NCBI RefSeq assembly: GCF_900187355.1
Contig: NZ_LT906451.1
Coordinates: 297,001 to 361,000 of the forward strand
DNA length: 64,000 nucleotides
From: Legionella lansingensis
GTDB taxonomy: Bacteria; Pseudomonadota; Gammaproteobacteria; Legionellales; Legionellaceae
Direction: 5' to 3'
Below are positions 4,756 to 21,199 of the stretch, piece by piece. The notes under the pieces are model-generated. The model was not told where the DNA came from. It saw only the letters and a list, made by a program, of their open reading frames with translations, and made no database searches. Position 1 is the stretch's first letter. Each line of letters opens with the position of its first letter. The translations under genes were made by a program, and so were the position numbers.

Positions 4756-5658
4756 ATGGACATCCGGGATATAAAATCTTTTTTTGCTGTCATTGAATAT
4801 CGCTCCATTACTTTGGCAGCTAAAAAAATGCATGTTACGCAATCTGCCATGAGTAAACGTATTCAAAAAATCGAAAATGAGTTAGGGGTTCGGTTGTTAA
4901 TCATGGAGGGGTCAAAAATAATATTGACTGAAGCAGCTAAACATCTTATCCCTCATGCCAGGCAAATGCTTTCCGCACATCAAAATATGATTCAAACACT
5001 CAAAAAAACTCAAGAGTTTAGTCAGCATGCGGTCATAGGTGCTTCCGTTTATGTCTCCCATTATGTGCTACCAGGTTTTCTAAAATACTTAAAAGAAAAG
5101 AATGCCTTGATTCAAGCGCACATTAAAGCCATGAGCGAACTTGAGGTGGGAAATTATTTGAATCATGGAATCGTTGATGTAGTGATCTGCCCAGCGCGAG
5201 AGATACCGGAGAAATTAATAACACCTGTTTTTCTATGGGAAGAAAAATTAAATTTGGTTGTCGGTGCTAATCATGAACTTGCCCTGCGCCATTCATCCAT
5301 TTCACTTTCACAATTGGCAGACTATCCAGCTATTTTAACTGAAAAAGGAGGGGCCTTTCGCGATAAAATAGAAGGTTTATTTGAAGAACATCATTTATCA
5401 TTAAAATTAGGTTTTGAAATTAGCACGATAGATGCCATAAGATCTTTGGTCGAATATGATCTAGGCTGGAGTTTCTTACCTGATAGTTTGCTATCAGAAA
5501 AATTAAAGGTTCCAAAGGTTAGAGATATTGAAGTTGTGATTCCATTTTGCGCCTATTATCTTAAAAAAAGAGCTGATGAACGGTTAATTCATGATTTATT
5601 AAGCCATTTTACTAGATGGCAGAATCCCAATGAGAAAGAAGAAAAAATTATGTGGTAA
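4756..5658 (+). CDS. LysR family transcriptional regulator
   Basis: The N-terminal 65 residues form the winged helix-turn-helix of LysR regulators (MDIRDIKSFFAVIEYRSIT, then AAKKMHVTQSAMSKRIQKIENELG). A periplasmic-binding-like effector domain follows to residue 300. The length is typical. No divergent partner gene is next to it: rnfH ends 46 bp upstream on the same strand and bamE converges from the other side, so the target cannot be guessed from context. Confidence 0.85.
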   Translation: MDIRDIKSFFAVIEYRSITLAAKKMHVTQSAMSKRIQKIENELGVRLLIMEGSKIILTEAAKHLIPHARQMLSAHQNMIQTLKKTQEFSQHAVIGASVYVSHYVLPGFLKYLKEKNALIQAHIKAMSELEVGNYLNHGIVDVVICPAREIPEKLITPVFLWEEKLNLVVGANHELALRHSSISLSQLADYPAILTEKGGAFRDKIEGLFEEHHLSLKLGFEISTIDAIRSLVEYDLGWSFLPDSLLSEKLKVPKVRDIEVVIPFCAYYLKKRADERLIHDLLSHFTRWQNPNEKEEKIMW

Positions 5659-5758
5659 TGGGGTAAAGGGGTGACAGAGTTTGGTAAACACTCGCCCCAC
5701 ATTTGTATGAGGCGTGTCATGTACGTATGCAACAATCTCTTTGAGGAAGCGAAACCCA

Positions 5759-6082
5759 TCAAGGCTTATGTTCAATACGTACCAGTTTTCCATGAGAAAA
5801 ATACAAAGTTACATTACGTACTATAAGAGCACGTGCTCCTCGACGCCAAGTGTAGGCGTAATCCCAACGGTCATTGTTAAAGGTGGGGCTTAGTAGGCTC
5901 GTTCCCATTAAAATGGCAACATCGCGCTTACTCATACCAAGCTTTAAGCGCTCAATCTTTGATTGTGGTAATAGGTTACCTTGTTGCACAATTCGTCTTG
6001 CATAGTCATAAGAGATGCAATTTGTTAGACAGAATGTGAGCGCTATACTAATGAAAAGAATGAGAATGGTTCTAATTCGCAT
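5759..6082 (-). CDS. bamE: Outer membrane assembly lipoprotein BamE (SmpA/OmlA)
   Basis: A 107-residue lipoprotein with a hydrophobic signal ending in the lipobox LTNC, followed by the BamE fold: QGNLLPQSKIERLKLGMS, then VAILMGTSLL and a WDYAYT strand. BamE is a subunit of the outer-membrane beta-barrel assembly machine. It is divergent from fur, the arrangement found in many gammaproteobacteria, and the 97-bp space between them must hold both promoters. Confidence 0.92.
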   Translation of the reverse strand: MRIRTILILFISIALTFCLTNCISYDYARRIVQQGNLLPQSKIERLKLGMSKRDVAILMGTSLLSPTFNNDRWDYAYTWRRGARALIVRNVTLYFSHGKLVRIEHKP

Positions 6083-6179
6083 TTTTTTTGCCTGTTAGGA
6101 AAAAGTTCGCCATAATATCACGTCATCCATAGAAAGACATCTAGGATAGAGGTGCTAAAGTAGCTATAGGAGTGCTCTG

Positions 6180-6599
6180 GTGGAAGAGAGTCAACAGTTA
6201 AAAGATGCTGGTTTGAAAATTACCATGCCACGCTTGAAGGTGCTGCAAATATTAGAACAATCCGGTGATCATCATTTAAGCGCAGAAGGGGTGTATAAAG
6301 CGCTATTGGAAATGGGTGAAGATGTTGGGTTAGCTACTGTTTATCGTGTGTTAACGCAATTTCAAACAGCTGGATTAGTCACTCGCCACAATTTTGAAGG
6401 AGGACATTCGGTATTTGAACTCAGTCAAGGAGAGCATCACGATCATCTTGTTTGTGTTAAGTGTGGTAGAGTTGAAGAATTCATCGACGAGGTTATCGAG
6501 CAACGTCAACAAATGATTGCCCAGCAAGCTAAGTTTAAAATGACCGATCATGCTCTTAATATTTACGGCATTTGCCCCGAATGTCAGAAGGAATCTTAA
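6180..6599 (+). CDS. fur: Ferric uptake regulator Fur
   Basis: A 139-residue Fur protein. It has the winged-helix domain (KITMPRLKVLQIL, then GLATVYRVLTQF), the metal-binding HHDHLVCVKCGRVEEF segment, and a C-terminal CPEC. It represses iron uptake genes with Fe(II) as co-repressor. The start is GTG at 6180, preceded by AGGAG seven bases upstream. A candidate Fur box could not be assigned confidently in the short bamE-fur intergenic region. Confidence 0.95.
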   Translation: MEESQQLKDAGLKITMPRLKVLQILEQSGDHHLSAEGVYKALLEMGEDVGLATVYRVLTQFQTAGLVTRHNFEGGHSVFELSQGEHHDHLVCVKCGRVEEFIDEVIEQRQQMIAQQAKFKMTDHALNIYGICPECQKES

Positions 6600-6665
6600 G
6601 GTAAAGATTCAGCAAACAATTTTTACTATAATTGATTATCCCTCCCAAACAAGGACGTTACTTTC

Positions 6666-8177
6666 ATGTACGATGACTTAATCAAACCCTACCAATCTTC
6701 TGATCTCCCAGCTTTACAATTAGGTGGGATACTGATGAATGAGCATTTACTCCCTAATTCGCCTGTAAATCTGGTGTTAAAATCACTTAACCGTCATGGA
6801 TTAATCGCGGGTGCCACAGGCAGTGGAAAAACAAAGACGATGCAAGTGTTGGCCGAGCAATTGTCCTTACAAGGAATACCTAGCCTTGTTATGGATATTA
6901 AAGGTGATGTTTCGGGATTGGCTATTCCGGGTGAGGCAAATGAAGCTTTGATAGCCCGTTGTCAATCACTGAATTTAACGTTTAGTCCAAGAGCATACCC
7001 TGTCGAAATGTTAAGTTTGAGTAACTTAATTGGTGGTGTCCCTCTGCGAGCAACAGTAACGGAGTTCGGACCTCTTCTCTTTTCGCGAATGTTGGATGTT
7101 AATGAGACGCAAGCGGGAGTGATTACTGTTCTTTTCGAATATGCAAAAACAAAAGACCTACCATTGATTGATTTGGCTGATTTTAAAGCCTTACTTCAGT
7201 ATGTACAAACGGAGTCAGGAAAAGCAGAAGTAGAAGCCCAATTTGGTGGTATTGCCACTGCCTCCGTGGGAACGATTGTACGAAAAATCATTGAGCTCGA
7301 AGCTGAAGGAGGTCAACAATTTTTTGGCGAACCTGCCTTTAATGTCATGGATCTTGTAAGAGTGAATAGTGAAGGGTTAGGAATCATCTCTATTTTACGC
7401 CTCATGGATATGCAGGATAAACCAAAACTGTTTTCTACCTTTATGCTGAAGTTGTTGACGGATGTTTATCGCTTGCTGCCTGAACTCGGTGATCCCCCCA
7501 AGCCGAAATTGGTCTTATTTATTGATGAAGCGCATTTGATTTTTAATAATGCCAGTAAGGCTTTGCTAAAGTTGTTGGACACCATTGTTAAATTAATCCG
7601 TTCCAAGGGTGTAGGCTTAATTTTCTGTACCCAAACACCTGATGATGTGCCTGAGTCAGTGTTGGGGCAGTTAGGGTTAAAGATACAACATGCTTTAAGG
7701 GCTTTTACGGCAAAAGATCGTAAAGCGCTTAAACTCGTTGCACAAAACTTTCCTCCGTCTGAGCATTATCAGACAGAGCAGTTATTAACCAATCTTGGGA
7801 TTGGTGAAGCCCTAGTGAGCGCTCTGGATGGAAAAGGTCAACCCACGCCCCTGGTACAGTGTTTGATTAGACCACCGGAATCACGGATGGGAGTACTAAA
7901 TGCTGATGAAATTCATAGGGCGATAGCCATGTCTACGCTCTTACCCAAATACGAACACCGCATAGAACGAAGTTCGGCAAAGGAGATCTTAGCTGCTGAA
8001 GTAGCTATGACAAGCCATGGACAGAGGAATGCCAAAGAGAGTAAAGCCGATGTGCAAGAGCCCTCTGTAGTCGATCAAATCAGTAAAAACACGTTATTCC
8101 GTCAGATCATAAGACAAATTATCCGCGATATTACGCGTTCCATTCTCTCTGCATTAGGTATTAGTAAAAAACGTTGA
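6666..8177 (+). CDS. HerA-like/YjgR-type ATPase (DUF853)
   Basis: A 503-residue ATPase with Walker A GATGSGKTKT (around residues 48-57), Walker B LVLFIDEAHLIF (around 276-287) and a downstream FCTQTPDDVP sensor-like motif, the pattern of the DUF853/YjgR branch of the HerA-FtsK superfamily. Such proteins are predicted DNA translocases or helicases, but no defined role is known for this branch. The C-terminal 90 residues are basic and poorly conserved. The end of the gene lies 28 bp before the left arm of the GIY-YIG cassette. Confidence 0.85.
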   Translation: MYDDLIKPYQSSDLPALQLGGILMNEHLLPNSPVNLVLKSLNRHGLIAGATGSGKTKTMQVLAEQLSLQGIPSLVMDIKGDVSGLAIPGEANEALIARCQSLNLTFSPRAYPVEMLSLSNLIGGVPLRATVTEFGPLLFSRMLDVNETQAGVITVLFEYAKTKDLPLIDLADFKALLQYVQTESGKAEVEAQFGGIATASVGTIVRKIIELEAEGGQQFFGEPAFNVMDLVRVNSEGLGIISILRLMDMQDKPKLFSTFMLKLLTDVYRLLPELGDPPKPKLVLFIDEAHLIFNNASKALLKLLDTIVKLIRSKGVGLIFCTQTPDDVPESVLGQLGLKIQHALRAFTAKDRKALKLVAQNFPPSEHYQTEQLLTNLGIGEALVSALDGKGQPTPLVQCLIRPPESRMGVLNADEIHRAIAMSTLLPKYEHRIERSSAKEILAAEVAMTSHGQRNAKESKADVQEPSVVDQISKNTLFRQIIRQIIRDITRSILSALGISKKR

Positions 8178-8205
8178 AATGATTGATGAAATGACAGAAA
8201 TTAAG

Positions 8206-8259
8206 GTGTTGACAATTGCTCCCCAGCGCCTACGTACCGCGACTTGTTCGCGGTATCCA
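8206..8259. repeat. Left 54-bp inverted repeat of GIY-YIG cassette
   Basis: This arm is matched at 53 of 54 positions by the reverse complement of 8746-8799. Each arm contains an inner palindrome (8235-8255 here) with stems TACCGCGA/TCGCGGTA around a 5-base loop. The two arms bracket only the GIY-YIG gene. Confidence 0.9.
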
Positions 8260-8270
8260 ATAGATCTTAA

Positions 8271-8561
8271 TCAGCTATAAATTTCTTCATAAAGATCACG
8301 CCACTCTGGATTTAAATCTTCGATCAAATTCAACTTCCACTGTCTGGACCAGTTTTTGAAACGTTTCTCACGACGTGCAGCCCCTACATAGGTTTCATGA
8401 ATTTCATAATAAACTAACCTATGAACATTATATTTGGCTGTAAACCCTGGAGTTAACTTATTTTTATGTTCCCAGACTCGTGTAATTAGATCAGACGTGG
8501 AACCGACGTACAGAGTGCCATTACGCTTGCTCGCCATGATATAGGCATAAAATAATTTCAT
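8271..8561 (-). CDS. GIY-YIG nuclease superfamily protein
   Basis: A 96-residue single-domain GIY-YIG protein (UPF0213/YhbQ-like group). The GIY and YIG strands appear as YAYI and LYVGST, the conserved arginine helix as LITRVWEHK, and the distal part as ARREKRFKNW. AAGGA sits eight bases before the ATG. Stand-alone members are predicted nucleases; some act on structured DNA. The gene fills almost all the space between two 54-bp inverted repeats, so it is likely the functional partner of those repeats, by analogy with REP-associated enzymes. That mobility role is inference. Confidence 0.85.
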   Translation of the reverse strand: MKLFYAYIMASKRNGTLYVGSTSDLITRVWEHKNKLTPGFTAKYNVHRLVYYEIHETYVGAARREKRFKNWSRQWKLNLIEDLNPEWRDLYEEIYS

Positions 8562-8864
8562 CTTGCTTCCTTGTTATCGAGTTTTTTGGACTGCACATCG
8601 ATGATATTACTTGAGTTATTCTGATTACATAGGGGGCCCAAATTGTTTTATACTTGGCATTAGAACCGCTATAATGCGATCTTTCTCTTATTAATCAATG
8701 CATTAGAAATTTATTAAAGTTCTGATTTTAAATTTGACCATTTACTGGATACCGCGAACAAGTCGCGGTACGTAGGCGCTGGGGAACAATTGTCAACACA
8801 CCCTAGTGATTTAAAAAATGTGCTATTGTATCGATTCTATAGATGGAAAAAGGAATTTTCACAC
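8562..8864. other. Intergenic region holding the right arm of the cassette
   Basis: Between the GIY-YIG start and the frameshifted gene there is no coding signal. The first 184 bp are AT-rich and may hold the GIY-YIG promoter. The right inverted repeat occupies 8746-8799. An open frame from 8790 runs into the downstream gene, but its first 25 codons lie on the repeat and lack a convincing ribosome-binding site. Confidence 0.7.
8746..8799. repeat. Right 54-bp inverted repeat of GIY-YIG cassette
   Basis: Reverse-complement copy of 8206-8259 with one mismatch (ggggaac against ggggagc). The inner palindrome lies at 8750-8770. The match stops abruptly at both edges of the arm, giving a unit of 594 bp from 8206 to 8799. 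Confidence 0.9.
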
Positions 8865-9403
8865 ATGATCAAGAGCTTGCTCAGCGCATTGGTAATATTC
8901 ATTCTATCAATTATAACAGTCCATGCAGATAATTTTGTTGCTTGTAAGAGTAAATATGCTTTGTGTACTACCGCTCCTTGCACCCCTATGGCAGGTAAAG
9001 AAAATATTGTTTCATGTCATTGTGATGTAAAAGAGGGTTATTCTGCCGCGACCCAACCTTGTCAACCAGCCAAGCAAACAAAAGATGGCGAGTTAATTTA
9101 TTCTCGTTATTTTCCAATAAAAAGTTATATCAAGTGTTCAAATGGCCTTGGGCATGGTGTCTTGATAAACCTTGTTTGATTGATAAAAAGGATTCTACTA
9201 AGGCCAAGTGTGAGTGCAATGTCGTAAACGATCGAGGAGATTATGTGATTGTTGTCAATCCTGCGATTAGTCCAAACAGTAAGAACACCTGTACTGCAGG
9301 GATTATTTCCTCAGCGACTGTTAAGCAAGCTGAAGAAATTACTGATTTTTTAAAATCTCAAAAGGAATTACAGCCCTATCCTATTCAGGTTATTAATGAA
9401 TAA
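8865..9403 (+). pseudogene. Frameshifted cysteine-rich secreted protein gene
   Basis: The frame from ATG 8865 encodes a signal peptide (MIKSLLSALVIFILS, then VHA cleavage) and a Cys-rich segment (CKSKYALCTTAPC, CHCDVKEGY). It leaves frame near 9141 and stops at 9179. The +2-shifted frame continues in the same style (WPWAWCLDKPC, KAKCECNV, then GIISSATVKQAEEIT) to 9403. Adding one T at AAATGG would rejoin the halves as a roughly 180-residue periplasmic protein. This is either a real one-base deletion or a sequencing error. The product family is not recognised. Confidence 0.75.
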
Positions 9404-9416
9404 ATTTAATGGTGAT

Positions 9417-10118
9417 TTATTTGCGGAGTAAAGTCTTAAGAGTTACAGCTAGGGTATCACAAAGATTAGATGAAGCCTCGGGATGAGTGGTCAAGGCTTG
9501 ATTCGCCTCGACTTCTAAGCCCAGGTATTCATCATTTGTAAATTCTGGGCGCAAGAAACTTGTAAAACCATCAGTCACTCCGCGATAAGGATAATTCATG
9601 CGTACCCGCAGTGCACTTGAGTGAGACTTCAATCGTAATTGCCATTCTTTTGCAAGCATACGCTCGTCACTGCGTTTGGGGTCATATAGGAGACCAATAT
9701 CAGCATCACGGACAAGATCATTGAAAACCGGTGTAAAGCTATGTATGGACAAATGCCAGACTTGTTGTCCAGCATTGATATGTTTTCGCACTGTGGATAT
9801 AAGTTGTTCTCTGAAAGGAAGGTAATATTCTTGAATAATGTGTGCTTTTTCCTCCGAAGTTAAGTTACGGGTGATTTCTGAAAAAACATAAGGGTTTGAC
9901 AAACGACGATTGCAATCAATGAGCAATCTTGTAGCCTGAGCGCATACTATGTCACAAGCAAAAACTTGTGACAGATGGTTAGCAATAGTGAGTGCCCCCA
10001 AATCAACGCCTCGATGGGTCTGCAGCACATCCTTATATTCAGCAAAATACTTTGTGTACTTCTCTGGAACGGTATTGACGGCATGCTCACAACTTAAGAC
10101 TAGAACTGGCGGTTTCAT
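9417..10118 (-). CDS. N-formylglutamate amidohydrolase family protein
   Basis: A 233-residue member of the N-formylglutamate amidohydrolase (HutG2-like) family, a zinc-dependent amidase fold. Visible motifs are LVLSCEHA near the start, THRGVDLGAL, IDCNRRL, and HLSIHSFTP for the metal/catalytic histidine. It hydrolyses small N-acyl amino acid amides in characterised relatives. No other histidine-degradation gene is near, so the histidine pathway is unlikely. It is the last gene of a four-gene unit and overlaps the ligase gene by ATGA, so it probably acts on a product or intermediate of that cluster. Confidence 0.82.
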   Translation of the reverse strand: MKPPVLVLSCEHAVNTVPEKYTKYFAEYKDVLQTHRGVDLGALTIANHLSQVFACDIVCAQATRLLIDCNRRLSNPYVFSEITRNLTSEEKAHIIQEYYLPFREQLISTVRKHINAGQQVWHLSIHSFTPVFNDLVRDADIGLLYDPKRSDERMLAKEWQLRLKSHSSALRVRMNYPYRGVTDGFTSFLRPEFTNDEYLGLEVEANQALTTHPEASSNLCDTLAVTLKTLLRK

Positions 10119-11338
10119 GTTGCTTTAAACAATTGATTCGTGAGCAAGCAATGTGAAAGTTGGCGGTAAAGGCGAGTCAGTGTTTGTTGACTGATTTCAG
10201 CACCACAAGCATACAAAAGTCGCTCGCTTAAATTTCCTTGGCTCAAAATAAATTCTAGTGTCTGTTGACTGCCATAATCAAGTTCTGGACTTATGCGTTC
10301 TATTAGATGTGACCAGATATCACGGGTTGTCATGCTTCGTGTAGGTAATTGCCATTGTCGATATAATTCGGGATCATCTACACAGACGGTAAAACCCTCT
10401 TGAATGGTTTTGTCATAGACTGTTTTTAAACGCGGAGTTTCACAGGGTTTATCTAAGTAGTAGGACGAATTACTCTGCCAGTTTTTCAAAATCGCATGGA
10501 TGGCAAGAGCAATTGCGATGTCTGCTTGCACACACTCTTGCGAATCAAGAATACGGATTTCAATAGCGCCATAATCGAATTTTGGGATAGCTGCTCTTGA
10601 ATTCAGCCATTCATATTGCAAGATACCTTGTGGATCAAAAGGACTGATCGCTTTATACATTGGCGCTAAAATGTTTTGTCGATACTCCTCTTCGCTGCGA
10701 ATAAATTCAGGGATAATCTCGCCACTAATCGATGGGATTGCTTGCTGATTTTTGCCATAAAAATATAGGCGTGAATCCTTTAACCCAGTTTTTTTGCCGT
10801 TCAAAAAAGGTGTACTCGCTGCCAAAGCAGGTAATAAAGGCAAAATTAAGCGGATAGCATTATGTAGGTGACTAAATTCTTCATCATTGGCAAAAGGTAA
10901 ATTAACATGCATGCTCTGTAAATTTGCCCAACCATGTCCCTGGCAATTAAAAATTTTATCGTATTGAAGATAAATTTCGCGGTTGCCATGAGGCCAACGC
11001 TTTGTTTCTTGCAAAGGGTCCATCCATGGATGGGCTCCTGTGGGGAGTAATTGTAGGTTTTGCTGCACAAGAAGAGGTTGCAATTGCTCTATCGTTTTTT
11101 GAAATTGCTCTGCTATGGCTCTTGAAGGTGGTTTGGGGCCATTGTTTTTTAATTCCAGCACGTGCATGACCAATTCATTGCTAATTGCAATATCATCCAA
11201 TACCACTTCATTAACAAGTGCTCCGGCCAACGTTTCCAAAAGCTCGTCACTTCGAGGCTGGACATGCAGGCTATCGCGGTCAACGAGCATGTATTCAATT
11301 TCGATGCCTAGAACAGAAAAAATAGGATAATTAGACAT
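10115..11338 (-). CDS. Carboxylate-amine ligase of the GCS2 (glutamate-cysteine ligase-like) family
   Basis: From the ATG at 11338 the protein has 407 residues. The N-terminal LGIEIEYMLVD carries the glutamates that bind metal-ATP in the glutamine-synthetase-like fold; QSMHVNLPF and GAIEIRILDSQEC are further active-site strands. GCS2 ligases form amide bonds between a carboxylate, often glutamate, and an amine. The start overlaps the upstream ATP-grasp gene by 8 bp; an ATG at 11344 is an equal alternative. Two unrelated amide-forming ligases side by side suggest stepwise assembly of a small peptide-like molecule. Confidence 0.8.
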   Translation of the reverse strand: MSNYPIFSVLGIEIEYMLVDRDSLHVQPRSDELLETLAGALVNEVVLDDIAISNELVMHVLELKNNGPKPPSRAIAEQFQKTIEQLQPLLVQQNLQLLPTGAHPWMDPLQETKRWPHGNREIYLQYDKIFNCQGHGWANLQSMHVNLPFANDEEFSHLHNAIRLILPLLPALAASTPFLNGKKTGLKDSRLYFYGKNQQAIPSISGEIIPEFIRSEEEYRQNILAPMYKAISPFDPQGILQYEWLNSRAAIPKFDYGAIEIRILDSQECVQADIAIALAIHAILKNWQSNSSYYLDKPCETPRLKTVYDKTIQEGFTVCVDDPELYRQWQLPTRSMTTRDIWSHLIERISPELDYGSQQTLEFILSQGNLSERLLYACGAEISQQTLTRLYRQLSHCLLTNQLFKAT

Positions 11339-12785
11339 AACCATGTTTCCTGCGAATACGCTGTAAAAAAACCCCCATGATATGTTGATAGAGCGATTCG
11401 CCCATAATTTTATCTTCTGTGCCAGAGTCAATATTCGGGTTATCGTTTACTTCAATGACATAATGTTTGTCGCCCTGACTTTTAATGTCCACGCCATACA
11501 AGCCATCACCAATCAGTCGCGTGCATTTTAAAGCGGTTTTAATGATAGCTTCCGGAACCTCATGAATGGGAACCGTTTCATGAGCGCCTTCACGTTGATC
11601 TTTCCTGGCACCCCAATTGTATATTTGCCAATGATCTTGAGCCATATAATAACGGCAAGCAAAAATAGGTTTATTATCTAAAATGCCAATTCGCCAATCG
11701 TATTCAGTTGGGATAAAGGGTTGGATTAAAACTAAATCAGAAATTTTAAAAAATTGACTTAATGATTTCTGTAACGCTTTTGCATCATCGAGTTTAATCA
11801 CTCCATGAGAGAAAGCACTATCAGGCCGTTTTAAAACGCAAGGAAATTCAATCTTCGGGATTTCTTTGTCGAATTTGCTGATAAAGATGGTTTCCGGGGT
11901 TAAGATTTGATGGCTGCGCATCAATTCAGCCAAGTATACTTTATTACTGCATTTTATAATGGATTGTGGATCATCAATGACCACTAAATTTTCTTGCGCC
12001 GCACGTCTTGCCATGCGGTAGGTGTAATGATTGACAGCGGTGGTGGCGCGAATAAATAAAGCGTCATACTCAGCGAGTGATTTAGTATCACTTTTTTCGA
12101 TAAAGTCAACGTTTAAGCCCATTGCCTCCCCAGTTTCAGCAAAAGTATCTAAGGCTTTTTTATTCGAGGGAGCATTCTGTTCGCTGGGATCAATCAAAAT
12201 AGCTAAGTCATGATAGCGCTGTTTTTTACGCCATTGATGGAAACGTTTTTTAGAGAGGTAGCTTTCCGCAGCTTGACGCATGAAAGTCAGATGGTGTTCA
12301 GGAATCTCGGCTAGTGATAACACTTGTAATGTTTTTATCCGCCACTGTTTCTTTTTCTCCAGAGTAAAGCGCATAAGAGGTAAAGGAAATAAGCCATGCA
12401 ATTTTTTGGCTAGATTGGCGTGACACTTGGCCATGTTTTGACCAAAATAGAGGCTCAAAATAAATTCTTCGCCTTTAATCTCATTTAAGCTATGCTGAAT
12501 TTCCTCATCCACATCCTGAGAGATAAACTTGGACAACTCTGCGTTTAACGCGTCTTGGATGCTGTGAACGGATGGTATGGCTTTATGATCTCGAGCATGA
12601 GCTAATAGGGAGACATAGTAGCCAATGGTTTGATGGTTATAGGATTGACAGAGATTGATTACCCGGATGGATTTACTTTGGTAGTAATTTTCGTTCGACA
12701 AGTATTCTGAAGCTTGTACTATGCTTGCTAGAGGATTCAAGAACTCCCACCCTGACGGATCATCCGTTACAATTAGTGTTTCCAT
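11331..12785 (-). CDS. RimK-type ATP-grasp ligase with RLAN-like N-terminal domain
   Basis: A 484-residue protein. The first about 190 residues match the extension seen in RimK-like ATP-grasp proteins of this cluster type (RLAN). The ATP-grasp fold follows: KCSNKVYLAELM, FPCVLKRPDSAFSHGV (ATP-binding lysine and loop), YDWRIGIL, and the metal site GLYGVDIK and VIEVNDNPNID. Such enzymes ligate an amino acid, often glutamate, to a carboxylate with ATP. It starts directly after the stop of the peptidase gene with no gap. The substrate is unknown. Confidence 0.82.
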   Translation of the reverse strand: METLIVTDDPSGWEFLNPLASIVQASEYLSNENYYQSKSIRVINLCQSYNHQTIGYYVSLLAHARDHKAIPSVHSIQDALNAELSKFISQDVDEEIQHSLNEIKGEEFILSLYFGQNMAKCHANLAKKLHGLFPLPLMRFTLEKKKQWRIKTLQVLSLAEIPEHHLTFMRQAAESYLSKKRFHQWRKKQRYHDLAILIDPSEQNAPSNKKALDTFAETGEAMGLNVDFIEKSDTKSLAEYDALFIRATTAVNHYTYRMARRAAQENLVVIDDPQSIIKCSNKVYLAELMRSHQILTPETIFISKFDKEIPKIEFPCVLKRPDSAFSHGVIKLDDAKALQKSLSQFFKISDLVLIQPFIPTEYDWRIGILDNKPIFACRYYMAQDHWQIYNWGARKDQREGAHETVPIHEVPEAIIKTALKCTRLIGDGLYGVDIKSQGDKHYVIEVNDNPNIDSGTEDKIMGESLYQHIMGVFLQRIRRKHGYV

Positions 12786-13505
12786 TTAGCACTCTTTAGG
12801 TTGAATTATTATCAAATTGGCATCATAAGTTAAAACGCCGACCATGATGGCATTAATTAAGCGGTTGCTGCTGACTTTGTAATAGTTGTCTCCTGAAATA
12901 GGATTCTCCCGATGAGGGTCTGCAACAACGACTAACCTTTTCTTGTCATCGTAACCGCATAAAACCACAAAATGACCACAAGGGGTCCCGCGAATATCAT
13001 CATAAATTGATTCACCGTTGATAAATCGTTCACGTGAACTTCGGTAGAGATAAGTCGCGCTCAAGCCAGTTAAGATGGGAATCTTTTGTAAGAAATAATC
13101 CTTAAGTAGTTGCACACTGAGTGTGCGGAAACGGAGTTCCCCTCCTAGAGAGAGGTATTCAAGATAAGCTTTACTTGCTTGCAGAATACCTTTCGTTCTT
13201 TTATGTTTCATTTGGGCAATTAATTTGATTCTTAATAAATGTTGACAAGCTTTTTCTTGCTCAAAATCAAACCATGTAGGATCAAAAATATTAAGATTAT
13301 TGATATAAATAGTTACCTTAAAACCATGAAGAAGGGCATGTTTACCTAACATAGGAGCCAACGTTCCACCGGAAAGGGAACGTTCCACATTTTTAATTAC
13401 CTCCCCTAGATCGAGATTCAAACCATAATAGCGATAAATAGCATGTAAACTAGTTGGGCCACAGGTTTCGTCATCAGGTTGCGTATGTATTGTGAGATCG
13501 ATCAT
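12786..13505 (-). CDS. C39-like papain-fold cysteine peptidase
   Basis: A 239-residue protein. The N-terminal QPDDETCGPTSLHA contains the oxyanion glutamine and the catalytic cysteine. GHFVVLCGYD supplies the histidine and VVADPHRENP the aspartate, so the triad is complete. This is the peptidase_C39-like type (DUF3335-related) found next to RimK-type ligases. No ABC transporter is adjacent, unlike bacteriocin C39 peptidases, and no membrane segment is visible. It heads the four-gene cluster and may cleave a leader, a conjugate or an amide made by the downstream ligases. Confidence 0.78.
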   Translation of the reverse strand: MIDLTIHTQPDDETCGPTSLHAIYRYYGLNLDLGEVIKNVERSLSGGTLAPMLGKHALLHGFKVTIYINNLNIFDPTWFDFEQEKACQHLLRIKLIAQMKHKRTKGILQASKAYLEYLSLGGELRFRTLSVQLLKDYFLQKIPILTGLSATYLYRSSRERFINGESIYDDIRGTPCGHFVVLCGYDDKKRLVVVADPHRENPISGDNYYKVSSNRLINAIMVGVLTYDANLIIIQPKEC

Positions 13506-13619
13506 AATGGCCAGGTTGGTAAAACACTATTTTTATACCCATCATTTGTTAACGTTAGACTTCCCATTTTCATTTGTCAACAATCAGTTTTGCAAAGAGG
13601 TCGAAAAAGATATTTGTTT

Positions 13620-14924
13620 TCAACGAGTTAATGATGGCCAATCGATATGAAAAAGCCGACCTAGGAAGCTTAGAATAGGAACTAAGAGCCCGAAAGCGAT
13701 GATGACATAGACAACAGGCAAGTATTTGTTACCAGTATTATTTTCATTTAGCTCAACTTTTTTCATTCTTGTTTCCGTAACCACAAGATACAACAATAGC
13801 GCCAAACCATAAAAATAAAAGGAATTAAAAAATAGTTTGCTTTGTATCGTCAATATCTTAGTCGATCGCAAATAATCCATGGGAAAATTAAGCATAAACA
13901 TACTTATGAACCACAAGCATTTTCCTTTACTATTGCCATCAGTCGCAAAAATAATTAACCAGGTTAAGATTAAAGGAAAAATCAACAAGGAAAAGTAGTA
14001 TAGCCAACCAAAAGGACTCATGATTAGCATCATTACGAGGGTTAAAGCAAAGGAGTATGTTTTTTCCGTTCCAATTTGTGCTATTTTTCTTAAATACCAC
14101 AAGAGACAAATTGAAAATAAACTAACGTAAAGTATTTTAATCCAAAGAATACTCTGTGTCTGATCGCGAGCGTCAATAAACAAACGAAACAAAAAGCCAT
14201 AAATAGAAGCGTTCCAGCTATCTCCATACCATAAAACCCTTACGATCATGGAAATATATTTATAATAAACATCGCTACCGTAGATGAAAGCAGGCATTAA
14301 TGTTAACAGCAGAAACACGAAAAGCATAACCCAGAATACTTTAAAGCGTTTTTGTAGCAAGACGTAGAAGAATAATAATCCTGGGAACAATTTGGCAGCG
14401 ATAATGAATCCCCACATGATGCCTGCGGCATAATCCCGGTTTTGGCAATAAAAATGATAACCTAGCATAATAGTAAACAGTAATAATGCTCCAATTTGGG
14501 CTATTGCTGTATCCATTAGGGTCGCAAAAAAAGAAAAGTAGAGAAGATATAAATTTATCCAGTTCCTTTTGAGAAAATGATGTGGAAATAGATAATGGAA
14601 AGTAATCCCAGCGCCGATTGCTCCTAAGCCTAGCGACAAGAACCACCAAATAGTAAGTGCAGTTTTATAGGTAAGCTGAACAAAAGGGTTCAAAAGCAGT
14701 AACACAATAGGTGGATTGAGATTCGCGGCTATTTTTTTAGCAGTGGGTAGGTAAGTTGCGAAAAGTATCTGATAAGGATTCTCGCCCATAGCTAACAGCT
14801 GAGCAGCGGAGTAAAACGAAGCGAAATCAATGCCTTGTTGATGGGTGTAAATAAAATAAAACAACAAACTATAGGTAAATAGTAGAAGTAAAAGAACAGC
14901 ACGTTGCCAATAGCCTAAGTTCAT
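13620..14924 (-). CDS. Polytopic membrane glycosyltransferase, GT87/DUF2029-like
   Basis: A 434-residue protein with roughly ten or more hydrophobic segments. The N-terminal loop GIDFASFYSAAQLLAMGENPYQ after the first membrane segment holds the acidic D/S/Y pattern of GT-C glycosyltransferases of the DUF2029 (GT87) type, and ANLNPPIVLLLLNPF follows. Characterised relatives use polyprenyl-phosphate mannose. The substrate here is unknown. It lies 14 bp after the DUF4442 gene on the same strand, suggesting an operon with that gene and the BON gene. Confidence 0.7.
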   Translation of the reverse strand: MNLGYWQRAVLLLLLFTYSLLFYFIYTHQQGIDFASFYSAAQLLAMGENPYQILFATYLPTAKKIAANLNPPIVLLLLNPFVQLTYKTALTIWWFLSLGLGAIGAGITFHYLFPHHFLKRNWINLYLLYFSFFATLMDTAIAQIGALLLFTIMLGYHFYCQNRDYAAGIMWGFIIAAKLFPGLLFFYVLLQKRFKVFWVMLFVFLLLTLMPAFIYGSDVYYKYISMIVRVLWYGDSWNASIYGFLFRLFIDARDQTQSILWIKILYVSLFSICLLWYLRKIAQIGTEKTYSFALTLVMMLIMSPFGWLYYFSLLIFPLILTWLIIFATDGNSKGKCLWFISMFMLNFPMDYLRSTKILTIQSKLFFNSFYFYGLALLLYLVVTETRMKKVELNENNTGNKYLPVVYVIIAFGLLVPILSFLGRLFHIDWPSLTR

Positions 14925-14938
14925 TTTAATCCGCTGAT

Positions 14939-15409
14939 TTAAACAACTTTAATTGATAATTCCAGGATAAAGTTAGCCACTTCTTCGGGTGCTTTAGGGT
15001 AGTTTACAAATGCTTTAATCTCTATGGGTTTATTAATGCGTTGTTCTGTTTTCTTCGCTTCTTCTATCATGGCTCTCACCACCATTCCCTGATCGCACAT
15101 AAAATAAACATCCGACTCAGGACGGCGTAAAAATTGTGCTTGAAACGATTTAAACACAATTGAAACCTTGAGATTGGCCTGTTTTGCATGATAAAAGCCA
15201 TGCAGACCACCTGCAAGATCCGCTCCCACGGCCAATGCTCCAAAGTACATTGAATGAAGATGATTTTTACTGCGACGTTTAAGAGGCAACTTAATAATAA
15301 TATCTTGCTCATCAAGTTTGAGGAGTTTGGGTCGTAAGTGGCCAATCAAAGGTACCTTGAAACAACCAAAGTACCATAGAAAAAACTTAAATCGGGTTAA
15401 GGTTTGCAT
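14939..15409 (-). CDS. DUF4442 hot-dog fold protein (thioesterase-like)
   Basis: A 156-residue protein. It matches the DUF4442 branch of the hot-dog superfamily: IIIKLPLKRRSKNHLHSMYFGALAVGADLAGG, where the N/H..S..FG.L pattern forms the core helix, and later IEIKAFVNYP. Members are predicted acyl-CoA or acyl-ACP thioesterases, but few are characterised. Its ATG shares a base with the stop of the BON gene (TAATG), a sign of translational coupling. Confidence 0.78.
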   Translation of the reverse strand: MQTLTRFKFFLWYFGCFKVPLIGHLRPKLLKLDEQDIIIKLPLKRRSKNHLHSMYFGALAVGADLAGGLHGFYHAKQANLKVSIVFKSFQAQFLRRPESDVYFMCDQGMVVRAMIEEAKKTEQRINKPIEIKAFVNYPKAPEEVANFILELSIKVV

Positions 15410-15963
15410 TAAGCGTCCTTGTTAATTTGTAACCTTGAAATAATTTTTTTCACACCACGAACAGCGCTTACACGTTTGATGATTGCACTTATCGCTTTTT
15501 CTTTCTTGAGGCTTCCCGATAATGTAACTATTCCATTGGTGGTTGTCGCATTAATCCCTACTAAAGGGATGGATTCATCATCAAATACTTTTGCTTTTAA
15601 AACAGCTGCCTCTACTTTGGCTGTGATGTAAGCATCCGTTAAGCCCGTGTTAACTTCCTTGATCATAAGTTCCTCGGTATCAACTTCCTTTACCCCCGTG
15701 GTGGTTATAGCAAGTCGTAAAGCTTCCACAAACGCTTGACGATCTTTTACGTGACCACGAAGACAAACGACACCATCTTTTGTTGAGACATAAATCTTAA
15801 AAGGATTCAGATTGCGATTCTTGGTGTATTTAGCCGTTATTTTTGTGGTGATAACTGAGTCACTAATGTCTTGCTCGAACTCTTTTAAATTGTTATCCGC
15901 ATGAGCTACAGTAATCCCGACAATGAGTAAGAGACTGATTAAAAAATTAAATATTGCTCGCAT
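15409..15963 (-). CDS. Periplasmic BON-domain protein (OsmY-like)
   Basis: A 184-residue protein with a signal peptide (LISLLLIVGITVAHA) and two BON domains, each with the alpha-beta-beta pattern ending in glycine: DGVVCLRGHVKDRQAFVEAL (first) and GIVTLSGSLKKEKAISAI (second). BON proteins bind phospholipid or the outer membrane and often respond to envelope or osmotic stress. It is the first gene of the probable BON-DUF4442-GT87 unit. Confidence 0.85.
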   Translation of the reverse strand: MRAIFNFLISLLLIVGITVAHADNNLKEFEQDISDSVITTKITAKYTKNRNLNPFKIYVSTKDGVVCLRGHVKDRQAFVEALRLAITTTGVKEVDTEELMIKEVNTGLTDAYITAKVEAAVLKAKVFDDESIPLVGINATTTNGIVTLSGSLKKEKAISAIIKRVSAVRGVKKIISRLQINKDA

Positions 15964-16105
15964 GCACGGTCAAATTAAAAAAACATGGCGAAAGTATATC
16001 ATTTTAAAATGGTCTACCAAGAGTTTCTTTGAGGAATTTTACAAAATCTTGAAAGTTCAATGGCTTTATTCATTATCGCTTTTTTATGACCCCCAGCATA
16101 TGCAT

Positions 16106-16242
16106 CACTGCCATTAAGTTAAGCTTCTCGAATCCCCGCGGGGCATCGACCGCGGGGTCCATCATGTCAGTCTGGACATGGATACCGCGGTCAAGCCGCG
16201 GTAATTCGAGACGATAGAAAAACCCTTAACTTAATGACAGTG
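16106..16242. repeat. MITE-like palindromic element (137 bp)
   Basis: Terminal inverted repeats of 18 bp (16106-16123 and 16225-16242, one mismatch) bound inner inverted stretches (TTCTCGAAT against ATTCGAGA), a GC-rich pair of CCGCGGGG motifs, and a 21-nt hairpin at 16183-16203 with stems TACCGCGG/CCGCGGTA. The hairpin core closely resembles that of the GIY-YIG cassette arms. The element fills most of the space between the BON and IcmL-like genes, which otherwise shows no gene. Confidence 0.8.
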
Positions 16243-16261
16243 AGCCTATGTATTCCTGGTT

Positions 16262-16699
16262 CTATTTAAGGTCTACGCTTAGACTTTGTATTATATAGGG
16301 TGGATTAGTGCTTTGAACGATAAAAAGGGAAAAGGAAGCTCCTCTATTGATGGCTGGGAAGTAATAGTCTTTATTTACCCGCCAATAATTGGTTCCATAA
16401 ATTATCCCTTTTTCCACAATCACTGCTGGACCTAATGACTGAGGTTCAGGAATGATCTTTTGATCTTTTAACATTTGAATCTGTTGACTGAAAAACGTCT
16501 GTAATCCGTCCCAGGCGTTAGGTGAATAATTGGCCCGTATAGTGTTTACCTCTGAGGTTGGTACGGCGTAATTAAAGGTAAGGGTGGAATATAGCACTTG
16601 TTCTGCCCAAGCAGTCACAGCAGCATCATCTGCTCGGCTAATGGAAGGAAGAAAAAGAGTCAACGAGAGAATCAAGGGCATCAAAAACTGAAAATTCAT
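16262..16699 (-). CDS. DotI/IcmL-like secreted protein
   Basis: A 145-residue protein with signal peptide (cleavage near SISRADD) and the DotI/IcmL/TraM domain: AAVTAWAEQVLYSTLTFNY, then IRANYSPNAWDGLQTFF and a C-terminal VQSTNPPYIIQSLSVDL. DotI/IcmL are inner-membrane parts of the Dot/Icm type IV secretion system; this one lacks the N-terminal membrane anchor of DotI and is a stand-alone periplasmic paralogue. Its function is unknown. A good ribosome-binding site (AAGGAAAG) precedes the ATG. Confidence 0.82.
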   Translation of the reverse strand: MNFQFLMPLILSLTLFLPSISRADDAAVTAWAEQVLYSTLTFNYAVPTSEVNTIRANYSPNAWDGLQTFFSQQIQMLKDQKIIPEPQSLGPAVIVEKGIIYGTNYWRVNKDYYFPAINRGASFSLFIVQSTNPPYIIQSLSVDLK

Positions 16700-16811
16700 G
16701 GTCTTTCCTTATGCGTTCCATTTGACTTGTACGCTATAGAAATCACGAAATAATCATTTGTTTAAAAAGTATAGCAGAGCTATAATTTGGTTTTTTTTGA
16801 ATCAAAATGCT

Positions 16812-19637
16812 ATGCATCATATTCATATTCGCGGTGCAAAAACACACAATTTAAAAAACATCGATGTCGACATTCCACGTGATCAATTAACTGTTATTAC
16901 TGGTCTTTCAGGTTCCGGTAAATCTTCTCTTGCTTTTGATACATTGTATGCAGAGGGACAACGTCGCTATGTAGAATCACTATCAGCCTATGCTCGTCAG
17001 TTTTTATCCATGATGGAAAAGCCTGAGGTGGATGCAATTGAAGGGTTATCGCCAGCCATATCCATTGAACAAAAAGCGACTTCGCATAATCCACGCTCAA
17101 CAGTGGGAACGATCACTGAGATATATGACTATTTACGTTTGTTGTTTGCTCGGGTTGGTGAGCCGCGCTGTCCTACGCATGGCGTGAGTTTGCATGCACA
17201 GACGATTAGTCAGATGGTCGATCAGGTTTTAGCTCTCCCAAAAGAAAGCAAAGCAATGATTCTTGCTCCTGTCGTGCGTGAGCGCAAAGGAGAGCATGTA
17301 CAGTTGCTGCAGCAATTACAGGCGCAAGGTTATATACGGGCTCGCATTGATGGCGAACTTTATGAGTTGGATGAGCCACCGAAATTAAGCTTGCGACAAA
17401 AACATACCATTGAAGTGGTGGTGGATCGATTTAAAGTGCGTGAGGATTTAGCGCAGCGGTTGAGTGAATCGTTTGAGAATGCTTTAAATCTGGCGGATGG
17501 TTTGGCGATCGTTTCAGCGGTGGATAAGACGTTTTCTGATTTGGTATTCTCTTCAAAATTTGCCTGCTCTGAATGTGGCTATAGCTTAAGTGAATTAGAA
17601 CCCAGGCTTTTCTCTTTTAATAATCCCATGGGAGCATGTCCTTCCTGTGATGGCTTGGGTGTCAATCAATTCTTTGACGCAGAACGTGTCGTTCATGATC
17701 CGTCAGCTAGTTTAGCTGATGGCGCCATTCGTGGTTGGGATAGAAAAACAACGTATTATTATCCCATGTTGGAATCATTAGCGCGTCATTTCAATTTTGA
17801 TATAGAAACCCCTTTTTGTGATTTGCCGGAGACTATACGGAATATCATCCTCTATGGCAGTGGACAAGACATCATTGAATTTCATTATTACCGCCCACAG
17901 GGTGGGTTTATGTCTAAAAGACATACTTTCGAGGGTGTTATACCTAATATGCAGCGACGATATCGTGAATCGGATTCATCGATGATACGCGAAGAGCTGG
18001 CTAAATATTTATCTTCCCGTCCTTGTGAAACTTGCCAGGGAACTCGGTTGCGTGAGGAAGCCAGGCATGTTTTTGTAGCGAATAAAAACTTGCCGGAACT
18101 TACTGCTTATTCGATTGAAAAGGCCTATGAGTTTTTCCAGAATTTACAGTTGACTGGTTACCGTGGAGAAATCGCGGCTAAAATCAACAAGGAAATTGTT
18201 GAGCGTTTGGGATTTTTGGTCAATGTTGGCTTAGATTATTTATCGCTCACGCGTAGTGCTGAAACGCTATCTGGGGGTGAGGCCCAACGTATTCGTTTAG
18301 CAAGTCAAATTGGTTCAGGTTTGGTTGGGGTCATGTATATTCTAGATGAACCTTCAATCGGTTTACATCAGCGTGATAATGATCGCTTATTGAAGACACT
18401 GCTGCACTTGCGTAATTTAGGCAATACCGTCATTGTCGTGGAGCATGATGAAGAGGCCATTCGTGCCGCTGATTTCGTTTTGGATATTGGTCCTGGTGCC
18501 GGGGTGCACGGTGGAAGGATTGTTGCCAAAGGTGCACCCGAAGAAATCATGAGTAATGCGCAATCATTGACGGGACAATATTTGGCAGGAGTGCAATCTA
18601 TTCCAGTCCCCTCAGCTCGAGTACCAGTTAACAACAAGCGAATGCTTCGTTTGTCAGGGGTCAAGTGCAATAACTTAAAGAATATTACGATTGATATTCC
18701 TTTAGGCGTTATCACATGCGTTACTGGTGTCTCAGGTTCCGGGAAGTCGAGTTTAATCAACGATACCCTCTACCCAATTGCTGCGAACAAGCTTAATCGC
18801 GCAAGCCTGCTTACCCCAGGCTCAGTAACTGAAATTAAAGGTTTGGAGCTATGTGATAAGGTTATTGACATCGATCAAAGCCCAATCGGCCGAACCCCAC
18901 GTTCCAATCCAGCGACCTATACTGGGATATTTACACCTATTCGTGAATTATTTTCATCCACTCCTGAAGCTCGCGCTCGTGGTTATCAACCAGGGCGATT
19001 TAGCTTTAATGTTAGGGGTGGTCGTTGCGAAGCTTGCCAAGGAGACGGATTAATTAAGGTCGAGATGCACTTTCTTCCAGATATTTATGTTGCCTGTGAT
19101 GTTTGCAAGGGAAAACGTTACAATCGAGAAACCTTAGAAATTCAGTATAAAGGAAAAAATATCCATGAAATCTTGGACATGACTGTTGAAGATGCTCGAC
19201 TATTTTTCGATGCCATCCCCATTTTGGCGCGAAAATGCCAGACCCTGATTGATGTTGGGCTGTCTTATATTCGTTTAGGTCAAAGTGCTACTACCTTGTC
19301 TGGAGGAGAGGCACAAAGGATCAAGTTAGCAAGAGAATTATCCAAGCGAGACACGGGAAATACGCTATATATCCTTGATGAACCAACGACAGGTTTGCAT
19401 TTCCACGATATCAAACAATTGCTCCATGTTTTATTTCGTTTACGAGAACAAGGCAATACGGTCATTATCATTGAGCATAACTTGGATGTCATTAAGACCG
19501 CTGATTGGATTATTGATCTTGGTCCTGAAGGAGGAAATAAAGGTGGGCAAATCATTGCTACAGGTACACCTGAAGACGTTGCACGATGTGCTGTTTCCTA
19601 TACCGGGCAATTTCTTAAACCACTGTTGAACAGGTAG
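16812..19637 (+). CDS. uvrA: UvrABC excision repair ATPase subunit A
   Basis: From the ATG at 16812 the protein is 941 residues, the normal UvrA length, starting [20 protein letters not shown]. Two ABC ATPase modules are visible: Walker [10 protein letters not shown] and GVSGSGKSS, two LSGGEAQR signatures, and zinc fingers CSECGYSL...CPSC and CEACQGDG...CDVCKGKR. UvrA recognises DNA damage and loads UvrB. The frame extends 18 codons upstream but that part is not family sequence. Its TAG stop is the first three bases of a dispersed repeat. Confidence 0.96.
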
Positions 19638-19790
19638 TACAGTGACAGCCTAATTTTGACAGATAAAAAAGTTTCTTTTTAATTGTTGCTCAGAGAATTC
19701 CTCGTCTCGGGGTAGGAGCTACTGCCATTAAGTCCATTTCGAATCCCCGCGGCATTGACCGCGGGGCCCATTCTGAATCTTGGGAGATAG
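19635..19790. repeat. Composite repeat: half of a TIR-bounded element joined to a half of another
   Basis: The first 27 bases, starting with the uvrA stop codon, are identical to 61294-61320. The following stretch through CTCGTCTCGGGG (to about 19712) matches the reverse complement of the right half of the element at 53208-53393. From about 19721 the sequence (CTGCCATTAAG, then TTCGAATCCCCGCGG and ACCGCGGGG) matches the left half of the element at 16106-16242. It therefore looks like a fusion or nested insertion of two repeat families. The right edge is approximate. Confidence 0.65.
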
Positions 19791-19795
19791 GCTTC

Positions 19796-21199
19796 TTATA
19801 AAACCTTTAAAAATGCGGTGAGGTCTTCTTTTTCTTGCTGTGTCAATTGCGTTTGTAAAATCAAGTTAAAGAATTCCACAGTATCCGCCAAGGTTAAAAG
19901 TCGTCCATCATGCAAGTAAGGTGGAGAATCTTTAATACCACGCAGCGGGAAGGTTTTTATCGAGCCATCGCCTATCGCTTTCATGTTATTGACCATCACT
20001 GGATTAAAGAAACGCTCCGTTTTTAGGTTGTGCATCGAATTATCGGTATAGTAAGGCGGTGCATGACAGATGGAGCATTTTGCCTTACCAAAAAATAGCG
20101 CTTCCCCGCGCAATTCGGCTTCTGTGGCTTTTGTGGGATCTAACCGTCCATCAATCCCTAACTTGGGTGCTGGTGGGAAATCCAAGAGTTCTTGAAACTC
20201 TGCCATGAAGTGTACCTGGCTTCCACGCTCAAGAATATTGACACCTTTTTTGGTCGCAATCACGGGGTCACCGTCAAAATAAGCTGCCCGTTGTTCAAAT
20301 TCGGTAAAATCCTCAACATTTTTAAGTGCGCGCTGGGAGCCAAACAGACGTTGAATGTTGACACCTCTTAAACTTGGTGTATCAATACGATGGCGAATTT
20401 CTTGTGGGCGAATATCACCGACGAGATGGGTACCTGCATTGGTATGTCCATTGGCATGACAATCAAAGCAAGCTACTCCACGACTTGGGGTTTTTGTACG
20501 GCGATCATCCGTTTGGTTAAATTGTTGTTGGGGAAAGGGAGTAACCAATAACCGCAGGCCTTCCAATTGCTTTGGATTAAGTATGCCATTGAACAGTTCA
20601 AAGAAATTATTAATTGTAACCAGTTTACCTTGAGAAACATCACCCAGATCGGGACGAGTGGTCAAAAATATGGGAGCGGGAAAAGGGGGCAGGAAGTGAT
20701 CGGGTAAATCAAAATCTAAATCAAAACGCGTCAAATCACGGTCTTCCTGCTTGTTTATTTCATCAATGGCAAATTTTGGAAATAGCATTCCTCCCTCAGG
20801 ATGATTAGGATGAGGAAGAGGCAAAAATCCTTGAGGATATAGGCCTTTCTTTTTAATTTCATCAGGCGACATTTTACCTAGCTCTTCCCAAGTAATGCCT
20901 GCTGGAAGTTTGATTCGAACACCTTCTTGAATGGGCTTGCCATTAGACATTTTGGTGTCTGTTGATGGTTTGTTGCTCAAGTCATAGCGTTGATTGAGTA
21001 GATCACGTTGCCGTTGATTAATAGCTGCTTTTTCCGCACTCATGCGTTCCATGATCGATTGAAAAGATTCTTTAATAACCACAGGCATATAACTGGTAGG
21101 TGGAGCTTTGGAGGTTGTCTCTGCTGGTGGGGTAGAAGTGGCGTAAACCGAGGACAGGCCACAAGAAAAAAGAGCCAGATATATCGCTTTTTTTAGCAT
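19796..21199 (-). CDS. Di-haem c-type cytochrome, cytochrome c peroxidase/MauG-like
   Basis: A 467-residue protein from the ATG at 21199, with a signal peptide (LALFSCGLSSVYA). Two CxxCH haem sites are present: CFDCH in the middle and CSICH near the C-terminus, followed by FPLRGIKDSPPYLHDGR, the motif around the peroxidase second haem ligand and loop. This is the di-haem peroxidase superfamily, in the periplasm. Members reduce hydrogen peroxide or oxidise protein substrates; the specific reaction is not clear. The N-terminal 150 residues are not typical of classical CcpA and may form a separate domain. Confidence 0.78.
   Translation of the reverse strand: MLKKAIYLALFSCGLSSVYATSTPPAETTSKAPPTSYMPVVIKESFQSIMERMSAEKAAINQRQRDLLNQRYDLSNKPSTDTKMSNGKPIQEGVRIKLPAGITWEELGKMSPDEIKKKGLYPQGFLPLPHPNHPEGGMLFPKFAIDEINKQEDRDLTRFDLDFDLPDHFLPPFPAPIFLTTRPDLGDVSQGKLVTINNFFELFNGILNPKQLEGLRLLVTPFPQQQFNQTDDRRTKTPSRGVACFDCHANGHTNAGTHLVGDIRPQEIRHRIDTPSLRGVNIQRLFGSQRALKNVEDFTEFEQRAAYFDGDPVIATKKGVNILERGSQVHFMAEFQELLDFPPAPKLGIDGRLDPTKATEAELRGEALFFGKAKCSICHAPPYYTDNSMHNLKTERFFNPVMVNNMKAIGDGSIKTFPLRGIKDSPPYLHDGRLLTLADTVEFFNLILQTQLTQQEKEDLTAFLKVL

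Follow-up and report, generated by a model that had tools for sequence, protein, structure and literature searches.

What joint role do four closely packed genes on the minus strand of the Legionella lansingensis genome play, encoding as they do a cysteine enzyme, two amide ligases of differing folds and a hydrolase? The genes lie in a 64,000-nucleotide stretch (positions 297,001 to 361,000 of contig NZ_LT906451.1; hereafter the window, whose numbering is used below) of a genome that consists of a single contig of 2.99 Mb. We find that the four genes, which we refer to as the cassette, are one evolutionary unit, look selection-constrained and retain the residues that catalysis would call for; very probably they serve one shared pathway whose product is a small peptide-like molecule or tag. 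Read along the minus strand, the gene order is C39-like, RLAN-RimK, GCS2 and FGase, all four being complete open reading frames (ORFs):

12786-13505, minus strand: first gene, C39-like papain-fold cysteine enzyme, 239 amino acids (aa) (ORF list and Pfam)
11331-12785, minus strand: second gene, RLAN + RimK-type ATP-grasp ligase, 484 aa (ORF list and Pfam)
11331-11338, minus strand: RimK stop and GCS2 start overlapping by 8 nt, ATGTCTAA (DNA sequence)
10115-11338, minus strand: third gene, GCS2 (glutamate-cysteine-ligase-like) amide ligase, 407 aa from its ATG
10115-10118, minus strand: GCS2 stop and FGase start overlapping by 4 nt, ATGA (DNA sequence)
9417-10118, minus strand: fourth gene, FGase (N-formylglutamate-amidohydrolase-family hydrolase), 233 aa

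At the C39/RimK junction the DNA sequence runs from TAA directly into ATG (0 nt), and the GCS2 ORF has an alternative earlier TTG start at 11431. An earlier sequence-only reading of the window had given these coordinates and the zero-gap and overlapping junctions, which proved exact on the minus strand when compared with the ORFs and the DNA, and had named two unrelated amide ligases and an FGase, for which the RLAN, RimK, GCS2 and FGase families of Pfam all score above their curated cut-offs.

Linkage within the Legionellaceae

RLAN was found in 67 of the 112 genomes of a Legionellaceae draw, and wide loci were taken from 40 of these 67 (L114-L153), plus four genomes with weak or multiple RLAN matches (L108-L113). 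RLAN-RimK, GCS2 and FGase were adjacent, ordered and on the same strand in 39/40 wide loci, the exception being L125, and C39 was present at 34/40, with one miss (L149) near a contig start; GCS2, FGase and C39 were absent from the fetched loci of the four further genomes. Across 103 Legionellaceae genomes (G000-G102), GCS2 and RLAN occurred together in 57 and were both missing from 41, leaving five discordant genomes, four with RLAN alone (G045, G059, G063 and G067) and one with GCS2 alone (G026). The two genes were adjacent in 56 of the 57 genomes that have both. In G003, RimK lies ~950 kb off, with C39, GCS2 and FGase remaining one block. Among the RLAN-only genomes, G045 and G063 carry the sister-type RLAN described below, G059 and G067 orphan copies.

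RLAN-RimK is duplicated in the Legionellaceae genus g33, where G067 has three tandem copies and one elsewhere, and G059 has copies at two places. C39, GCS2 and FGase are absent from these duplicated loci (L108, 5648-10469, and L109-L111), and in the tree described below the g33 copies sit within the four-gene group, on its Legionellaceae branch. In single genomes the cassette looks broken: RimK is split in Legionella norrlandica (L180; two frames) and in L146 (three frames), and GCS2 is broken in L129.

A plasmid-borne cassette was rejected after searching plasmids with C39, which gave no match in tblastn, and with RLAN-RimK, which matched 21 records, two of which were inspected. On one of the two, a 9-kb Legionella adelaidensis record titled 'plasmid 27', fur and dapF adjoin genes for RimK, GCS2 and FGase, and the Pseudomonas aeruginosa plasmid NZ_CP133752.1 (L160) holds an RLAN-RimK relative of 39.8% identity, with no GCS2, FGase, C39 or GNAT among the annotated features adjoining it.

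Spread over about ten phyla and a ligase fusion

A GCS2 profile scan of the named genome collection returned at least 574 relatives, from which we kept the best 80, chosen by GCS2 similarity alone; 28 of these loci belong to Legionellaceae or close metagenome-assembled genomes (MAGs) and 52 to others. By record name or taxonomy, the 52 outside loci belong to Bacteroidota, Planctomycetota, Thermodesulfobacteriota, Myxococcota, Acidobacteriota, Gemmatimonadota, Hydrogenedentota, Spirochaetota, Bdellovibrionota and Pseudomonadota, about ten phyla overall, so that a system exclusive to Legionellaceae was rejected, and named strains among the scan records show that cultured carriers outside Legionella exist; Pontibacter and Rufibacter are among the cassette bearers (L190, L213 and similar loci). 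Strictly adjacent to GCS2 were RimK in 79 of the 80 loci, C39 in 71, FGase in 69 and all four genes in 61 (27, 24, 27 and 23 of 28 on the Legionellaceae side; 52, 47, 42 and 38 of 52 outside), and some misses fall at contig ends (for C39 two on the Legionellaceae side and two outside, for FGase none and two). A set of genes that holds together in a fixed order across Legionella, Pontibacter, Planctomycetes and Geobacteraceae must serve a lasting use.

Phylum draws that were not similarity-chosen, around Bacteroidota, Planctomycetota and Desulfobulbus (L212) centres, with the centre counted, held GCS2 in 16/198, 22/119 and 1/118 genomes, respectively, the last being the centre itself. RimK lay beside GCS2 in 16/16 genomes and 22/23 loci (L273 is without RimK), and FGase lay in the 1.5-kb flank in 9/16 and 15/23; these loci are too short for C39. 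In G859, from the Planctomycetota draw, RLAN-RimK and GCS2 are fused in one 974-residue frame between the C39 and FGase genes (L287; L279), and this fusion is the strongest single argument that both ligases act in one pathway. The coupling of the four genes that the sequence-only reading had proposed is therefore strongly supported by linkage in about ten phyla and by the ligase-ligase fusion, and the comparison of co-occurrence and gene order across genomes that it had called for upheld the linkage.

No fifth gene recurs beside the cassette: 89 other gene clusters were seen at two or more of the 80 loci, with 12 of them spanning Legionellaceae and outside loci, and the commonest cluster of at least 80 residues reaches 7/52 outside loci, which all belong to one family. 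Similarly, among 1473 small ORFs within 900 bp (67 upstream and 68 downstream flanks), none of 55 clusters joins Legionellaceae and others, and an adjacent conserved precursor peptide was rejected on this ground. That no exporter, regulator or precursor is adjacent, as first noted for the window alone, is upheld, and none recurs in the 80 loci.

Genes resembling M42 glutamyl-aminopeptidases lie directly after the cassette in two distant organisms (L193, 9958-11022; L216, 5280-6320). A record titled Klebsiella pneumoniae (L194, a metagenome bin) has the cassette, groups with gammaproteobacterial MAGs and is probably mislabelled.

Conserved residues and constraint

The RLAN-RimK protein matches RLAN (PF14401, 154 bits, cut-off 25, 3e-45) and RimK (PF08443, 38.1 bits, cut-off 21, 1.6e-9), and the ATP-grasp part of its AlphaFold model (pLDDT 86.0) matches D-Ala ligase, RimK and LysX/ArgX. 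K282, K319, D433, E445 and N447 are invariant in 38 alignment rows; we take these to be the ATP/Mg residues of the ATP-grasp fold, and catalysis is predicted.

The GCS2 protein (PF04107, 92.7 bits, cut-off 21, 3.4e-26) carries the family core, GxExE plus R / E-I-R. Its residues E13, E15, H144, R248, E260 and R262 are invariant in 38 rows and are common to two YbdK-type paralogues of the same genome, in which the invariant H135-G136-W137 segment of the cassette protein is a gap. Eleven NCBIfam models matched it, none at its cut-off (best equivalog 70.7 bits vs 371; subfamily TIGR02050 70.3 vs 176.4), which places the protein outside the YbdK, GshA and EgtA assignments. Glutathione synthesis, one of the known pathways that would have counted against the sequence-only reading, was rejected as the role of the cassette because the genome has a separate pair, gshA (TIGR02049, 531 bits) and gshB (TIGR01380, 413 bits), together at about 661-663 kb.

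The C39-like protein scores above the curated Pfam cut-offs for Peptidase_C39_2 (38.1 bits, cut-off 24) and in a second C39-type match (25.7 bits, cut-off 22), and the structures nearest to its predicted structure are C39 leader peptidases. A full Cys/His/Asp triad had been read from the letters and stands, since Q9, C15, H178 and D196 are invariant in 39/39 aligned sequences; the candidate catalytic codons, computed from the ORF and invariant in the alignment, are:

13461-13463, minus strand: codon of candidate catalytic Cys15
12972-12974, minus strand: codon of candidate catalytic His178
12918-12920, minus strand: codon of candidate catalytic Asp196

No N-terminal hydrophobic stretch was seen by eye, and the protein is therefore probably cytosolic. 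It is single-domain and the scanned window neighbours include no ABC exporters, which sets it apart from the C39 leader peptidases of bacteriocin exporters.

The FGase protein matches PF05013 (74.7 bits, cut-off 28.9, 1.6e-20), with 2odf as a relative in the PDB (1.1e-33). E11, H12, H126, E202 and E204 are invariant in 28 rows and are presumably metal-site-like residues. FGase is the least constant part of the cassette, given its presence beside GCS2 in only the 9/16 and 15/23 of the phylum draws, and it evolves faster than the other three genes and is missing from some cassettes elsewhere. Eight non-Legionellaceae loci are without FGase; a substitute gene was rejected after the next frame was scanned in three of the eight, giving a helix-hairpin-helix protein in L218 and no Pfam match in L229 and L230.

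For selection estimates the cassette genes were compared with those of Legionella brunensis, which has the closest RLAN-RimK relative in the tree (91%). With synonymous sites near saturation in all four genes the ratios are rough: the ratio of nonsynonymous to synonymous rates (dN/dS) is 0.02-0.03 for RimK and GCS2 and 0.20 for FGase, and for C39, where synonymous sites are saturated, the nonsynonymous proportion (pN) is 0.049. All four genes look to be under constraint in this comparison.

A sister system with GNAT in place of GCS2 and FGase

A 398-genome Pseudomonadota draw contained RLAN in 72 genomes, our own included, and all 74 RLAN places outside our genome were fetched (loci of ~14.5 kb, some shorter). 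None of the 74 loci matched the family-built GCS2 or FGase profiles, and in 71 of them a GNAT or GNAT::DUF3335 gene lay <500 bp from RimK. Pfam describes DUF3335 as 'Peptidase_C39 like family', and the cassette C39 aligns with it in hhalign at an E-value of 3.3e-11, with common CGP, H and DP positions. In a tree of 106 RLAN-RimK proteins, the four-gene type is split from the GNAT type with a support of 100 in the Shimodaira-Hasegawa-like approximate likelihood-ratio test (SH-aLRT; a quick method without bootstrap). The tree samples 35 proteins from the 74 places outside our genome, the window itself with 11 of the 28 Legionellaceae cassette loci, 50 of the 52 remaining cassette loci, and nine proteins from L108-L113 and L125. 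The sister system is like the cassette in combining RLAN-RimK with a C39-like papain-fold partner, and unlike it in having a GNAT domain in place of GCS2 and FGase. Where one type has the GNAT, the other thus has GCS2 in its stead, usually accompanied by FGase, and the two may each supply an acylation step to a common kind of intermediate. Together with the ligase fusion, the sister system narrows the biochemistry of the cassette.

Two Legionellaceae genomes (G063 and G045; L112 and L113) have RLAN-RimK of the sister type together with a GNAT gene that stands alone, and their RLAN-RimK proteins group with those of other gammaproteobacteria. A DUF2817 gene near a GNAT-type RLAN locus (L063, 10282-11415; one member scanned from a cluster of 14 loci) is perhaps a second hydrolase-like companion of that locus type.

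A proposed pathway and its alternatives

As a kind, linked amidoligases and peptidases were reportedly predicted already in 2009, when Iyer et al. are said to have described gene neighbourhoods of amidoligases (ATP-grasp, glutamine-synthetase-like/GCS2-type) with peptidases of unrelated fold, and to have predicted that they make or modify peptides. That work is cited in PMC4431377, PMC8939145 and PMC10318531, the last of which raises on its authority the possibility that the GNAT of the fused protein acts as a peptide ligase or an acetylase; other peptide-ligase operons are treated in PMC2922099. Our literature search, whose coverage did not include Iyer et al. (2009) itself, returned no paper on the four-gene cassette, no named product and no function for the sister system.

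We favour, with a probability of roughly one half, a single cytosolic pathway in which the two ligases build an amide-linked small peptide and the two hydrolases trim or recycle it. The two unrelated ATP-dependent ligases, GCS2 and RLAN-RimK, would act in turn, building a short, probably glutamate-containing peptide much as GshA and GshB make glutathione. The C39-like enzyme would take the product as an acyl-enzyme, followed by hydrolysis or transfer in the manner of phytochelatin synthase, and the FGase-family metallo-hydrolase would remove an N-acyl-glutamate unit and recycle it; the bonds made, the order of the steps and the nature of the product, a small molecule and not a protein tag, are inferred. 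Glutathione with phytochelatin synthase is itself a different system, as the genome's own gshA/gshB lie elsewhere and the cassette GCS2 falls below the GshA cut-off. A more specific version, which we put forward tentatively, is that the cassette makes a low-molecular-weight peptide parallel to glutathione, with its own turnover enzymes, in about ten phyla, the sister GNAT version of other Pseudomonadota making an N-acylated variant of this product.

Several observations weigh against the favoured pathway. Some lineages lack the hydrolases, and in G026 (an assembly that is 67% complete) GCS2 and FGase occur without RimK. The absences of GCS2 and RLAN within Legionellaceae track genera, which makes the Fisher value indicative only. 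The narrow GCS2 profile matched 0/397 other drawn Pseudomonadota at E-values up to 1e-10 (at most four candidates per genome were scored in some), and the C39 profile gave only four weak partial matches in the same 397; named records of other Pseudomonadota do carry the cassette in the GCS2 profile scan. The fold evidence does not decide between a peptidase and a transferase. A product made from free amino acids such as glutamate, as well as the scheme of forming, trimming and recycling that the sequence-only reading proposed, are what we infer.

The alternative that survives best, which we regard as rather unlikely, is reversible protein tailing, in which RLAN-RimK, helped by GCS2, extends a chromosomally encoded protein by a tail of amino acids that C39 and FGase trim. 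The ATP-grasp part of the RLAN-RimK model matches RimK structures, and a ligase with a cognate peptidase follows the same logic as RimK/RimB: according to PMC11957791 and PMC10092738, RimK adds glutamate to the ribosomal protein RpsF, RimB trims the tail, and the two enzymes also occur as a RimB-RimK hybrid (the term RLAN is absent from PMC10092738). The RimK/RimB(/RimA) system of Pseudomonas likewise joins an ATP-grasp ligase to a trimming protease and has a fused form; however, the cassette adds GCS2, its hydrolases are of other folds than RimB, a retropepsin, and the target of RimK is a known protein. The two ligases of differing folds suggest two different amide bonds, and no recurrent target-candidate gene lies beside the cassette in the 80 loci, although the target may be encoded elsewhere.

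We consider it improbable that the cassette makes a graspetide-like ribosomally synthesized and post-translationally modified peptide (RiPP), with ATP-grasp and GCS2 cross-linking or extending a precursor peptide from which C39 removes the leader. Graspetide loci use ATP-grasp ligases, the C39 peptidase/ABC transporter family tops their associated families in PMC8939145, and the C39 model is nearest to C39 leader peptidases. Yet the best structure matches are exporter C39 domains inside ABC transporters, whereas the cassette C39 is stand-alone, no exporter or other fifth gene recurs in the 80 loci, and none of the 55 small-ORF clusters spans Legionellaceae and others, a result with which a distant or lineage-specific precursor is compatible.

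Just as improbable is a catabolic or salvage role, in which an amide or peptidoglycan fragment is imported and broken down by the hydrolases, while the ligases merely re-use the freed amino acids: the two ligases make up the steadiest core and share one frame in one genome, it is mostly the hydrolase genes that are missing (with the exception of G026), and the 80 loci show no recurrent transporter or sensor gene next to the cassette. That the cluster is accidental, each gene having come from its own known pathway (glutathione synthesis, histidine degradation, protein glutamylation), is scarcely credible, for although every protein carries a familiar family name, the linkage over about ten phyla, the ligase fusion, the joint presence and absence and the dedicated gshA/gshB elsewhere all speak against it (no search was aimed at the hut genes of histidine degradation).

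Other features of the locus

The four cassette proteins had no match in PADLOC-DB at E-values up to 0.01, and a catalogued defence system was rejected accordingly. An RNA element at the cassette was likewise rejected, with no Rfam match at gathering score in window positions 5000-20000. Neither the promoter scan (15 vs a shuffle mean of 12.3) nor the terminator scan (2 vs 4.0) rose above shuffles. Near the cassette lies a HerA-like ATPase gene (window 6666-8177), adjoining a short ORF that looks GIY-YIG-like by eye (8271-8561). The upstream same-strand neighbour is a GT87-family glycosyltransferase-like gene (13620-14924), 114 nt from the cassette, whose position is kept in a number of Legionellaceae and whose sequence is strongly variable (36-58% identity in the pieces seen).

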